Part shown: in pieces, positions 789 to 5,102 of the stretch
Position numbering within the stretch: position 1 is the first letter of the stretch
How the letters are laid out: every line of letters starts with the position of its first letter
Assembly (NCBI GenBank): GCA_020718645.1
Contig: DYRQ01000015.1
Location: 1 to 32,351, forward strand
Length of the DNA stretch: 32,351 bases
Source of the DNA: Verrucomicrobium spinosum
GTDB lineage: Bacteria; Verrucomicrobiota; Verrucomicrobiia; JADLBR01; JAIBCM01
Direction of reading: 5' to 3'
Position numbers and translations under genes: made by a program
Notes under the pieces: generated by a model
What the model saw: the letters and a program-made list of their open reading frames with translations, nothing else
Databases searched by the model: none
What the model was told of the DNA's origin: nothing

Positions 789-1172
789 ATGAGCAAGGGT
801 AAAATCACCGAAGCGGAATGGGAAGTCATGGAGGTTTTGTGGGCGGAGAACAAACCGCTGACTTCCTCGGCTATCATCGGAAAACTCGAGCGAAAAACTG
901 ACTGGGCGCCCAATACGATCCGCACGCTCTTGGCCCGGCTGGTTGAAAAGAATTGTGCGACCACGCACAAGCTCGAGGGAAAGCTGTTCTACTCCACGGC
1001 TGTTCCCCGTAGGCAGTGTGTGGACAAGGAAGGTAAAAGTTTCCTTGCCCGAGTCTTCGGTGGTTCTCCCACGCCGCTGCTTCTCCACTTTGCCCGACAA
1101 GCCAAATTCACACCCGAAGAGTTGTCTGCCCTGCGTCGTATTCTCGACCAAAAAGAAAAAGGCTCCAAATGA
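789..1172 (+). CDS. BlaI/MecI-family transcriptional repressor
   Basis: A 127-aa winged-helix repressor of the BlaI/MecI/CopY family, of usual length (about 120-130 aa). The N-terminus has the family signature ITEAEWEVMEVLW, followed by the recognition region around WAPNTIRTLLARLVEKN. A shorter C-terminal part should dimerise and, in known systems, carries the site cut by the partner protease. I chose ATG 789 over an in-frame TTG at 777 because the protein then starts as usual for the family. Its stop overlaps the start of the M56 protease gene (ATGA), so the pair is translationally coupled. A perfect dyad at 749-769 is the probable self-operator. The trigger is not shown: the partner has no penicillin-binding domain, so beta-lactam sensing should not be assumed. 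Confidence 0.9.
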   Translation: MSKGKITEAEWEVMEVLWAENKPLTSSAIIGKLERKTDWAPNTIRTLLARLVEKNCATTHKLEGKLFYSTAVPRRQCVDKEGKSFLARVFGGSPTPLLLHFARQAKFTPEELSALRRILDQKEKGSK

Positions 1173-4009
1173 ACACGCAAGATTATGTATTAAAATGGCT
1201 GGCGGAATCCAGTTGGCAGGCTGGGTGCATGGCGCTCTGCCTTTTCGTGGTGCTCTCAATATTTCGCGGGAGCGTGCCGCCGCGGTGGAGGCATGCGCTC
1301 TGGCTCTTGGTAGCCTGTCGTCTGTTGCTTCCTGCTCTTCCTTCCAGCCCGGTCAGTGCCTACCAAATCATTCCTGCCTCTCCAGCCGTGGCGTGGGAAC
1401 AAGCCCTGCCAGAAACTCCTGCGCCCCCATTCTTGGAACCACCGGCAGCATCTCCCGAGCCTGCACCTGCGACAGCCGTTTCCGGCTTGCTGCCATGGAG
1501 ATGGGATACACGAGAAATCATTTTCTTCCTTTGGCAAGTCGGCGTCACGGCTTTCATTCTCCGGTTAGGGGTCAAGCAACATCTCTTTTATCGCCACTTT
1601 CGTTCCAGTCGTCGGACACCCTCCGAGGGGCTTTGGGGCATCATCGCGAGTGTTGCCCGAGAAGCGGGACTATCTCAGCCACCTCCCTCCTATCTGCTCG
1701 ATAGCACGGCAGGCCCCTCGCTTTTTGGGATTTTCCGGCCTTGCTTGCTTTTGCCGTCCGATGTGCAGACCCGCCTTCAGCCCGAGCAACTCCGGTTGGT
1801 CGTGTTGCACGAGTGCATGCACCTGAAACGATATGATCTCTGGACGCACCTCATGACCCTGTTCGTGAGCGTGACCCACTGGTGGAATCCCTTGGCCTGG
1901 TGGTTGGTCGCCAAGATCAGAGAGGAGAGAGAACTTGCTACCGATGCAGCCGTGTTGGAAATCTTGCGACAAGACCAGCAGAAGGAATACGGGGAAACCC
2001 TGCTGACCCTTGCTCAATCCGAAGAGATTTCCATTGGCGGATTGCAACCTACGATAGGAATATTTGAGAGGCATGCCGACCTCGAATCCCGCCTGCGTCA
2101 ATCAGCGGGTTTTGTCCGGTCCAAACCGCTCTGGTCTGTTGTCGGGCTCCTATGCGTTATCGCGGTCATTCCATTTCTGCTTTCACGAAACCGCATCAAG
2201 TCAACGGAAGATCAGCCGGCTAGAGAGGTTGAAGCAGTGTTACCGTTTGAAGAGTCTGGAGATCCGGAAAAAGACGGGACTGCTATCTGGGAAAAGGTGA
2301 AAGAGAAATATGCGAACTGTGACTCATTCTACTGTGAGGCGGAGGAGATTACTACAAATGACAAACCAGAAAGCCTTTCCGGTAGTGAGAGTAAATTCGT
2401 TCTCAGATTTCAACGCCCAAATCTCATGCGGCTGGATTTTATGCTTCCTTCATCTACCAGTTTTACTCCGGATGTAAGTTCATTTTTCACGAAAGATGGC
2501 AGGTATTTCGGAATCAGGAGTTATAAAAGAGAAATCAAAGAATTCAAAGTAATTGAAAATGGTATCGCTGAAATATCAGGTTCAATATCTGGTTTCCACA
2601 TGTGTTTAATGCTTCTCGGAAAAAGTCAGTCTTTCGACGGTATTGGCAAAGTAGTAGGCAATACTAATGTCCGTGGGCATGAGTGTTACCTGATAGAGTG
2701 TTCAAGAAATCCTCTAGAAAAATATGTTTTTGCGGTGAATAAAAAAACATTTGCCATTCACCAATTTGAGGTTGTCAGTGAAACCACCCCAGAGATGGTC
2801 AAGGCACAAACCGAAAGACTTAAGTCGAGTATAAAAGACCTAAAACAGTTAGAGGCATTATTCCCCAAAGAAGGTTATACAACGACCATCACGAGCACTT
2901 TCACCACCGTGGTATTCGACAAAAAAATGGCTGTCAAAGATTTTGTGTTCGAGGATCCCAAGCGTCCTTACACGCTGCCGCCTCCTATTCAAAGAAGCGA
3001 AGCTGAGACTAAAATGGAAAAAGGGGTCAGTCTCTTGCAAGTAGCCAAAGATCGGAGAACGCCCAACAGTTATCGCGAAGCTGAGACACTTTTTTCCGAA
3101 GTTATCCAAGCTGAACCCAAAAACAGTGAGGCGTGGAGCCGCCGCTGCGAGGCACGGGTGGGGTTGCGAGATTATCATGGTGCCATCTCGGATGCCAGTG
3201 AAGCTTTGGAACTCTTGCCGGGTTATTGGCATTCACTCATGTATCGTGGACAAGCTTATTTCGGACTTGGACAATACGACGATGCGTTGGCTGACTATAA
3301 TACTATACTAAAAAACGATAATCGTTTTTTCTGGCCGCCCGAGCTGAAAGCCTACTGTTATCTGGCGATGGGTCAGTTAGACAAGGCCTATAAGAATTTC
3401 TCGTCCAGTAATTGGAACGATCGTCCCCATATCAAACATCGTATGGGGTTAACGCGGATGTTGATGGGAAAGACGAAGGAAGCTGCGAACGAGTTCCGTG
3501 ATTTGCACGGGTTGTGGAGCGAGCATGGCATCTGTGTAGCTGCCTATGTCAGCGGAGATAGTGCCACGGCGGGCACGATGATAGAACAGCTCTGCAAGAA
3601 AAACCCGGGCTGGTTGGATGGAGCTATTCTGCGATTCGCCATCGGGGTGCAGGACGGCAAAAAAGTCGCCTTCGTGTCTCCGACACAGGCTCAACAACCG
3701 TGGCAGGTAGCCGTGCGCCGGTTGGGAGAAAAGAAGGAGACTTTGGAAGACACATTGAAACAGGTAGTGGATGCGCAGGACCCACTCAAAACTCGGTTGC
3801 ACCAGGCTGATGCCTATCTCTTGGCAGGATATCAAGCGTTGCAAGGACAGGAGAAGAAGGAGGCGCTGGAACATTTTATCAAAAGCGCTCAGCACGGGCA
3901 GATGCTCTCGCACACTTACATTCTAGCACGGCATGAAGCGCTGAGATTGGACCCGACGCTCGAGCCAGCCAAGCTGCTGCCTCAACCGATGTTTGTCACC
4001 ATGCCATAA
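1169..4009 (+). CDS. BlaR1-like M56 membrane protease fused to LolA-like and TPR regions
   Basis: A 946-aa predicted membrane sensor-protease. Residues 1-340 are a BlaR1/MecR1-type M56 domain: hydrophobic segments near the start, the zinc motif HECMH at 214-218, the downstream ELATDAA region at 255-261 (usual glutamate ligand area), and a last membrane segment at about 322-340. In known systems this protease cuts the BlaI repressor when a signal is sensed outside. The usual penicillin-binding sensor is missing. Instead, residues about 360-620 resemble LolA/DUF2092-type lipid-binding beta-sheet proteins (weak, by pattern), and about 630-750 are TPRs (REAETLFSEVIQAEPKN, YDDALADYNTILKND), with a helical tail to the end. 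The DNA for the LolA-like part (about 2200-3000) is visibly richer in A+T than its flanks. The start overlaps the repressor stop. The ligand is unknown. Confidence 0.85.
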   Translation: MNTQDYVLKWLAESSWQAGCMALCLFVVLSIFRGSVPPRWRHALWLLVACRLLLPALPSSPVSAYQIIPASPAVAWEQALPETPAPPFLEPPAASPEPAPATAVSGLLPWRWDTREIIFFLWQVGVTAFILRLGVKQHLFYRHFRSSRRTPSEGLWGIIASVAREAGLSQPPPSYLLDSTAGPSLFGIFRPCLLLPSDVQTRLQPEQLRLVVLHECMHLKRYDLWTHLMTLFVSVTHWWNPLAWWLVAKIREERELATDAAVLEILRQDQQKEYGETLLTLAQSEEISIGGLQPTIGIFERHADLESRLRQSAGFVRSKPLWSVVGLLCVIAVIPFLLSRNRIKSTEDQPAREVEAVLPFEESGDPEKDGTAIWEKVKEKYANCDSFYCEAEEITTNDKPESLSGSESKFVLRFQRPNLMRLDFMLPSSTSFTPDVSSFFTKDGRYFGIRSYKREIKEFKVIENGIAEISGSISGFHMCLMLLGKSQSFDGIGKVVGNTNVRGHECYLIECSRNPLEKYVFAVNKKTFAIHQFEVVSETTPEMVKAQTERLKSSIKDLKQLEALFPKEGYTTTITSTFTTVVFDKKMAVKDFVFEDPKRPYTLPPPIQRSEAETKMEKGVSLLQVAKDRRTPNSYREAETLFSEVIQAEPKNSEAWSRRCEARVGLRDYHGAISDASEALELLPGYWHSLMYRGQAYFGLGQYDDALADYNTILKNDNRFFWPPELKAYCYLAMGQLDKAYKNFSSSNWNDRPHIKHRMGLTRMLMGKTKEAANEFRDLHGLWSEHGICVAAYVSGDSATAGTMIEQLCKKNPGWLDGAILRFAIGVQDGKKVAFVSPTQAQQPWQVAVRRLGEKKETLEDTLKQVVDAQDPLKTRLHQADAYLLAGYQALQGQEKKEALEHFIKSAQHGQMLSHTYILARHEALRLDPTLEPAKLLPQPMFVTMP

Positions 4010-4046: not shown

Positions 4047-4481
4047 ATGAAAAACTTAGGGAAAATAATTGGGTTCGTGTGGGTTTTTAGTGTGGCGATG
4101 TCGGTGCGGGCCCAGAATCCAACAGAAGATCCGGCGGCCAAGCTGGCGGAGGTGAAGATGTTTGCGCTGGGAGCGACCGGCTTAGCCGGGACACTGTCGG
4201 AGGGTGAACTGGCCTATCAGGCATTGGCTGCGGATAAAGAGGCGCTCCAGAAATTCTCCCGCCTGCTCAAGAAAGGAAACCCACAGGCGCAGTGCTATGC
4301 CTTGGTTTGGTTTCGGCAAACCGAAATGTATCTATTTGATCTCGTTGCCGCTGGGTATATTCGAGATGAATCACCCGTGGTGGTGGGGGATGGTTGTTTC
4401 GTGACGAGCAAAAAACTGTGCGATCTGGTTCTGCAGATTGGAATGGGGTCACTCAACAAGGATGCCCCCCAGAATTATTGA
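4047..4481 (+). CDS. Small exported protein of unknown function
   Basis: A 144-aa protein I do not recognise. It begins with a clear signal peptide: Lys near the N-terminus, a hydrophobic core IIGFVWVFSVAMSV, and a probable cleavage after A22 (VRA-QN). The mature part has a helical stretch with ELAYQALAADKEALQKFSRLL, which could act like a repeat or scaffold helix. ATG 4047 is preferred over the upstream in-frame start because GGAGG (4037-4041) lies 5 bases before it and the signal peptide then starts correctly. It is 37 bases downstream of the M56 protease and so is probably in the same operon. Being exported, it may work with the outward-facing part of that protein (inference). Confidence 0.65.
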   Translation: MKNLGKIIGFVWVFSVAMSVRAQNPTEDPAAKLAEVKMFALGATGLAGTLSEGELAYQALAADKEALQKFSRLLKKGNPQAQCYALVWFRQTEMYLFDLVAAGYIRDESPVVVGDGCFVTSKKLCDLVLQIGMGSLNKDAPQNY

Positions 4482-4494
4482 ATCAGAGGATGCG

Positions 4495-4791
4495 ATGAAA
4501 AAAGCCTATATACTCACGGCAGAGCCGAGCGATGCTGGCGCGTGGTTGACGCAGATGCGCGATGAGGTGGCGCAGGGGTATGCGATATTTGTCCACTTGC
4601 TCGATGAGGCTGTGGTGTTGTGTCAGGGGGAGGTGTGGGTGGAGTTAGTGTCGGTGACGCCGCGTGTTTCGCTCTGTGCCTTGGCGTTGCAGAGAAGAAA
4701 TATGGAAGCACCAACCGAGGCGGTGCTGGGAGGCTTGGCTACGGTGGGGGCGCTAATCGAGGGATGCGATGTGTGGGAGTGCCCTATATGA
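4495..4791 (+). CDS. Small protein, possibly DsrE/TusB-like
   Basis: A 98-aa cytoplasmic protein. An alternating hydrophobic strand at the start (KKAYILTAEP), a central strand with acidic residues (GYAIFVHLLDEAVVL), a segment with a single Cys (VSLCALALQRRNM) and a late Gly-rich helix recall the DsrE/DsrF/TusB fold of sulfur-relay proteins. This is a pattern-level guess, not a firm match. ATG 4495 is preceded by GAGG and lies 13 bases after the previous stop; its own stop overlaps the next start (ATGA). The pairing of two similar-sized small proteins is typical of DsrE-type heteromers. An unrelated conserved small protein remains possible. Confidence 0.5.
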   Translation: MKKAYILTAEPSDAGAWLTQMRDEVAQGYAIFVHLLDEAVVLCQGEVWVELVSVTPRVSLCALALQRRNMEAPTEAVLGGLATVGALIEGCDVWECPI

Positions 4792-5102
4792 GTGGAGAGC
4801 CAAGACGGGTGCTGATTGGGTTTGTATCGGGTAACGCTGCTCGGTTTGCAGAAGCTGTGCGAGTGGCTGCTGGGTTGGCGGTGCAGGGGTCGTTTCCCGT
4901 GGATTTTTGGATGGGCGCCACCGTGCTGGGCGCAGTAGGAGAAGCGGAGATCGAGGCACTACAGGAGTTGGCGGATTCAGGTGGCTGTCTGCTGGTCGCT
5001 TCTGGGTTGGTAGATGCTCGAGCACTCTTCGGGACAACCCTCGACTGGACAGAGTGGGAAGGGCCGAGCGCTGGGGAGTTAAGACGGTGTCTGAGGTTTT
5101 GA
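4788..5102 (+). CDS. Small conserved-type protein, possibly DsrE-like partner
   Basis: A 104-aa protein starting with a strand and loop (RVLIGFVSGNAARFAEAVRVA), then a second strand (FPVDFWMGATVLG), a helix (EIEALQELADSGG) and a strand with Cys (CLLVASGLVD). This alpha/beta order resembles DsrE-like proteins, as in the preceding gene, to which it is coupled by an ATGA overlap. No catalytic motif is clear. Its 3' end overlaps by 24 bases the convergent TPR gene on the other strand. It is the last gene of the BlaI/M56 operon. Confidence 0.5.
   Translation: MSGEPRRVLIGFVSGNAARFAEAVRVAAGLAVQGSFPVDFWMGATVLGAVGEAEIEALQELADSGGCLLVASGLVDARALFGTTLDWTEWEGPSAGELRRCLRF

Follow-up and report, generated by a model that had tools for sequence, protein, structure and literature searches.

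A BlaR1-type membrane protease with a predicted LolA-like and TPR outside part, paired with a BlaI-type repressor

INTRODUCTION

BlaR1 is known for sensing antibiotics; in the locus described here, the same protease-repressor switch carries an outside part made of a LolA-like domain and TPRs. The window, that is, the whole stretch of DNA analyzed (32,351 nucleotides), is one complete contig (C3) of a 2.56-Mb genome in 152 contigs. In the open-licence literature, we found no description of a protein that joins an M56 protease to a LolA-like domain.

RESULTS

A repressor-protease gene pair behind a perfect inverted repeat

The beginning of the window contains the following features.

749 to 769 (no strand): perfect operator-like inverted repeat, TGTAGTTG-ACTAA-CAACTACA, with 8-base arms, an N5 spacer and zero mismatches
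761 to 780: imperfect second repeat, ACAACTACACCTGTGGTTGT, overlapping the repeat at 749-769
789 to 1172, forward strand: gene of a blaI-type winged-helix repressor, 127 amino acids (PF03965, Penicillinase_R)
1169 to 4009, forward strand: blaR1-like gene, 946 amino acids in a single open frame starting with ATG
4047 to 4481, forward strand: gene of a 144-amino-acid protein with a signal-peptide-like start, 37 nucleotides past the stop of the M56 gene

The repressor and protease genes overlap by 4 nucleotides (ATGA), and the palindrome lies 20 bases 5' of the repressor ATG. The initial annotation had proposed a BlaI partner with a perfect operator, and both elements are borne out, the former by its PF03965 match (E = 1.7e-30) and the latter by the absence of mismatches. 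The repressor also matches BlaI/MecI sequences of the PDB (E = 1e-17 to 5e-17), and its residues H100-F101 align with the cleavage site N101-F102 of Staphylococcus aureus BlaI, keeping the P1' phenylalanine, which is almost invariant at this site (PMC9834060).

The palindrome is the sole exact copy in the 2.56-Mb genome. Genome-wide, nine sites follow the operator pattern with at most three mismatches versus seven for a reversed control, i.e., about the control level, and the genome-wide regulon search with this operator gave no further convincing site and no target beyond its own operon. TGTAGT half-sites are also present 5' of the blaI gene that accompanies the ankyrin paralogue described below and 5' of blaI in a genome of the same family (G001). 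We infer that autoregulation is the main output of the pair. The 144-residue protein, which matches NCBIfam MchS3 under the cut-off (E = 4e-7), is a possible member of the operon and could represent its output. Farther downstream, positions 4495-5102 hold two small overlapping open reading frames (98 and 104 amino acids) that lack a Pfam match and look, by eye, possibly DsrE/DsrH-like. The genome encodes two M56 proteins and two BlaI proteins, whose genes are arranged as two pairs.

The protease part resembles that of BlaR1

1169 to 2182, forward strand: M56 zinc-protease part, residues 1-338 (PF05569, model and match to a BlaR1 structure)
1328 to 1507, forward strand: proline-rich outside loop, residues 54-113, at the place of BlaR1 EL1 (model and alignment)
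1808 to 1822, forward strand: HECMH zinc motif, residues 214-218 (sequence motif)
2057 to 2074, forward strand: GIFERH, residues 297-302, candidate autocleavage loop with the hydrophobic F299 (position inferred from PMC9834060)

Residues 14-287 match Peptidase_M56 (PF05569) with an E value of 7.7e-48. The AlphaFold model, with a confidence near 95 in this part, predicts four membrane helices (residues about 2-31, 38-53, 114-147 and 320-338) and matches the transmembrane-protease structure of BlaR1 (8exr; TM-score by target, 0.74). The zinc motif, which had been read as intact, is indeed present as HECMH at residues 214-218. Furthermore, D223, E255/D259 (in ELATD) and Y274 are spaced exactly as D210, E242/D246 and Y261 of S. 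aureus BlaR1, which uses H201ExxH and E242xxxD and in which D210 and Y261 are near strictly conserved (PMC9834060). The window protein thus combines HExxH and ExxxD in a membrane M56 domain with an adjoining BlaI/MecI-type repressor, the two sequence hallmarks of an M56/BlaR1-type protease. The protease is presumably active and would cleave its partner BlaI.

In BlaR1, the outside loop EL1 occupies the active site of the sensor until displaced by the drug (PMC9834060). In the window protein, the first half of the corresponding loop (residues 60-86) is identical at 22 of 27 positions to the G001 protein, which exceeds the overall identity of that pair, and at 11 of 27 to the ankyrin paralogue. 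Contact between this loop and the sensor would fit such identities, a lead rather than a conclusion, the G001 sensor lying past the end of its contig.

The outside part is predicted to consist of a LolA-like domain and a TPR arm

2264 to 2944, forward strand: LolA-superfamily domain, A+T-rich, residues 366-592 (predicted structure and homologues)
2999 to 3976, forward strand: TPR or helical-repeat arm, residues 611-936 (Pfam TPR, helices of the model and structure matches)

Residues 366-592 gave no direct Pfam match, including to the LolA and DUF2092 profiles, and no sequence match in the PDB. Their AlphaFold model, built with 13 sequences, has a mean pLDDT of 79 and shows a LolA-type half-barrel. 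In a Foldseek search against the PDB, the top matches were LolA, LprG, RseB and MucB (best E = 6e-8, probability 1.00), and LolB was matched as well. By target, the TM-scores of the LolA matches do not exceed 0.62, a moderate level in line with a remote, larger relative. VioE is also among the Foldseek matches. LolA-like folds serve as carriers or enzymes too. At the sequence level, the link to the LolA superfamily is transitive: homologues found in the class yielded a first profile and, through it, further members, among which one (L086) scores above the DUF2092 cut-off and another (L093) above that of LolA. A profile search found no canonical LolA in the genome.

The arm that follows is recognized in sequence, with TPR models around residues 620-720 above their Pfam cut-offs (TPR_2, 40.4 bits versus 27; TPR_1, 36.5 versus 27.8). 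Residues 611-936 are modeled as paired helices that match TPR structures, with low confidence beyond about residue 813. Structure prediction of the outward part, which the initial annotation had suggested as a check, therefore returned the two folds it had named, a LolA/DUF2092-like region and then TPRs; even its mention of DUF2092 was apt, given the homologue above that cut-off, though the window protein itself stays below it.

With a BlaI partner and an M56 protease, as in bla operons, the protein could be a beta-lactam sensor of classical BlaR1 function whose penicillin-binding domain has strongly diverged. However, no penicillin-binding (transpeptidase) or beta-lactamase family appears among its Pfam matches down to E = 10, in agreement with the initial reading that the C-terminal part lacks such a domain. 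In addition, the outside part is modeled as LolA plus TPR, and the NCBIfam blaR1_generic equivalog reaches 102 bits versus a cut-off of 400 and covers residues 22-333 only. We hold a beta-lactam sensor to be highly improbable.

Related LolA-like domains occur in free proteins and in ECF sigma factors

Homologues of the LolA-like domain are encountered as free proteins whose start resembles a signal peptide. In three proteins from two genera, found as profile homologues, the domain is located at the end of an ECF sigma factor, behind a hydrophobic segment.

L087, 1132 to 2739, reverse strand: ECF sigma-LolA-like fusion
L088, 1048 to 2673, reverse strand: ECF sigma-LolA-like fusion
L090, 709 to 2175, forward strand: ECF sigma-LolA-like fusion

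Such a fusion is apparently a one-protein envelope switch. With related LolA-like domains attached to transcription regulators of two unrelated kinds (M56-BlaI and ECF sigma), a detector is the simplest reading of their role.

A second genome of the phylum has the same domain order

A search for the domain order in other genomes had been proposed along with the initial reading. Searches within a single family and a single order, as well as a search of the class with the first profile, gave no second M56-LolA copy. The widened profile, applied to 388 genomes of the phylum, identified one in a second genome (G604): a protein of 2,438 residues in which M56, a LolA-like domain, and TPR and Ig-like (Big-like) repeats follow each other on one contig. 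A BlaI-type gene is situated immediately 5' of it, preceded by a long inverted repeat, CGACAAGTGTCGTTA...TAACGACACTTGTCG (L123), and a divergent LolA-like lipoprotein gene, under the Pfam cut-off, adjoins this blaI (L123, 8442-9965). No downstream partner gene common to the window locus and those of its relatives was found.

In the M56 tree, support is 98/95 for the grouping of the window protein with that of G001 and 100/100 for the grouping with its own paralogue. A clade of the window and G604 proteins is rejected (p-AU = 2e-5), the G604 branch being long; the M56-LolA-TPR order has therefore probably arisen twice, or one half has been exchanged. The closest relative, G001 (C211, 1-945; L034/L099), is 64% identical, but its M56 gene runs off the contig within the region that encodes the protease; no LolA-like match was found in that genome.

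M56 genes at contig ends, as in G001, are common here, and base composition shifts within the window gene, as would be expected if an assembly error had joined an M56 gene to an unrelated one. Nevertheless, such a chimera has in our view only a very slim chance of being the explanation: the gene is a single open frame of 946 codons, an unrelated genome (G604) has the same domain order on one contig, and a drop in composition is seen in the ankyrin paralogue as well.

The very long TPR/Big-like arm of the G604 protein also bears on which part of the outside region senses. TPRs are binders of peptides and proteins, and the arm could be the sole detector, acting by protein-protein contact, with the LolA-like domain as a passive spacer. 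This we consider quite unlikely, as the LolA-like part recurs without TPRs in the free secreted proteins and in the sigma fusions.

The outside part is exchangeable among M56 proteins

The initial annotation had noted that the DNA of the LolA-like part is richer in A+T than its flanks, and had taken this as a hint that the sensor was swapped in. The first point is correct: the LolA part has a GC content of 41.2% (GC3, 41%), compared to 56.9% (GC3, 61%) in the M56 part and 56% over the window, and the lowest-GC stretch of 723 bp in the whole window starts at position 2221. The drop is larger than in nearly all relatives. In 24 of these, the whole C-terminal part averages 3.9 points of GC (standard deviation, 3.2) under the M56 part, versus 9.6 points in the window protein (15.6 for the LolA part alone); only the ankyrin paralogue drops further for the whole C-terminal part, by 11.8 points. 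The GC drop taken by itself as proof of a swap is thus weakened, the sensor parts of relatives being lower on average too, though rarely so far.

The swap finds support in the paralogue and in the M56 tree. The other M56 protein of the genome shares 45% identity with the window protein where the two align, and ends in ankyrin repeats, and the similarity of the two proteins stops just past the last membrane helix.

L068 (G000, contig C1), 609 to 995 and 1003 to 4218: second BlaI-M56 pair, with a long ankyrin-repeat C-terminal part and the TGTAGT half-sites 5' of its blaI

Relatives carry carboxypeptidase-regulatory-like, secretin, HlyD, ExbD-like or DUF4019 parts at the same C-terminal place, and the M56 tree (17 labeled proteins) requires at least 10 changes of C-terminal type. 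That the outside part is exchangeable among M56 proteins is therefore well supported by the ankyrin paralogue, the tree and base composition, and the proposed swap of the sensor stands on the three combined, GC alone being no proof. Some of the ankyrin, carboxypeptidase-regulatory-like and secretin C termini of relatives may not be sensors. As a separate observation, four M56 proteins (L027, L036, L037 and L071) have secretin-type C-terminal domains, and one of the four also gives an LptD_N-like match; such domains are unusual companions for a protease of the BlaR1 type.

LolA superfamily proteins are carriers of lipids and lipoproteins, and the LolA-TPR part might accordingly be an effector or scaffold rather than a detector, for instance a carrier of lipids or lipoproteins, anchored in the membrane and by chance fused to a protease, its amount set by BlaI autoregulation. 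The free secreted homologues and the LolA-like lipoprotein gene adjoining the G604 blaI would suit such a role. Against it, the LolA-TPR part follows membrane helix 4, i.e., the position of the BlaR1 sensor, many dissimilar domains occupy that position in relatives, and ECF sigma factors bear related domains as well, so that we judge a carrier or scaffold unlikely.

DISCUSSION

We consider it likely that the locus encodes a BlaI-BlaR1-type one-component pair, in which cleavage of BlaI by a cytoplasmic protease is under the control of a detector outside the membrane, made of a LolA-superfamily domain and TPRs. Without signal, BlaI would sit on the palindrome at 749-769 and keep its own operon repressed. 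A ligand, most plausibly a lipid, a lipoprotein or a misplaced envelope protein, would then fill the LolA cavity or bind the TPR arm, and membrane helix 4, perhaps together with the outside loop (residues 54-113), could relay the change to the zinc protease in the cytoplasm. By analogy to BlaR1, the protease would cut BlaI at H100-F101, releasing the operon.

A lipid or lipoprotein, or envelope stress, is the signal that we propose, by analogy, from the structural neighbors RseB, MucB, LolA and LprG and from the occurrence of related domains in secreted proteins and in fusions to ECF sigma factors. A more tentative proposal, which we regard as possible rather than probable, is that the phylum employs the LolA-like fold as a portable detector of envelope lipids in unrelated transcription switches, and that direct lipid or lipoprotein binding controls BlaI cleavage, combining an RseB-like input with a BlaR1-like output.

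The LolA-TPR part found here and the ankyrin, secretin-like, carboxypeptidase-regulatory-like and other parts of relatives raise the possibility that the sensing of beta-lactams is just one specialized use of a general membrane-protease switch whose detector can be exchanged. They suggest that one and the same protease switch has been put to use by bacteria for various envelope signals, each read by its own detector. The natural exchanges just past the last membrane helix are ready-made chimeras for the question of how BlaR1 signals across the membrane; they also call for caution in labeling M56-BlaI pairs as antibiotic resistance genes.

Comparison with known systems

The pair is closest to BlaR1/MecR1 and BlaI/MecI of S. 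aureus and Bacillus licheniformis (MEROPS M56), with which it shares the repressor-protease gene arrangement, four membrane helices, the HExxH...ExxxD gluzincin signature, an outside loop, a C-terminal domain outside the membrane and the phenylalanine at the BlaI cleavage site. Unlike BlaR1/MecR1, the window protein has a LolA-like and TPR part in place of a penicillin-binding domain, and unlike in bla operons, no beta-lactamase or PBP gene adjoins the pair.

The outside domain resembles the LolA/LolB/LprG/DUF2092 superfamily in its predicted fold and through its transitive sequence links. Whereas members of that superfamily are free carriers, the window domain is anchored to the membrane, fused to a protease and itself below the family profiles. 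RseB and MucB, the envelope stress sensors of the sigma-E and AlgU pathways, likewise place a LolA-type fold outside the membrane, where they control the proteolysis of a regulator's partner. RseB is a periplasmic regulator that LPS displaces from RseA (PMC7593790). In contrast to these free periplasmic proteins acting on an anti-sigma factor, the window domain is part of the protease itself, and the target would be a repressor. The three ECF sigma fusions (L087, L088 and L090) similarly equip a transcription regulator with a related LolA-like domain, which follows a hydrophobic segment, but their output is a sigma factor, while that of the window protein is a protease.
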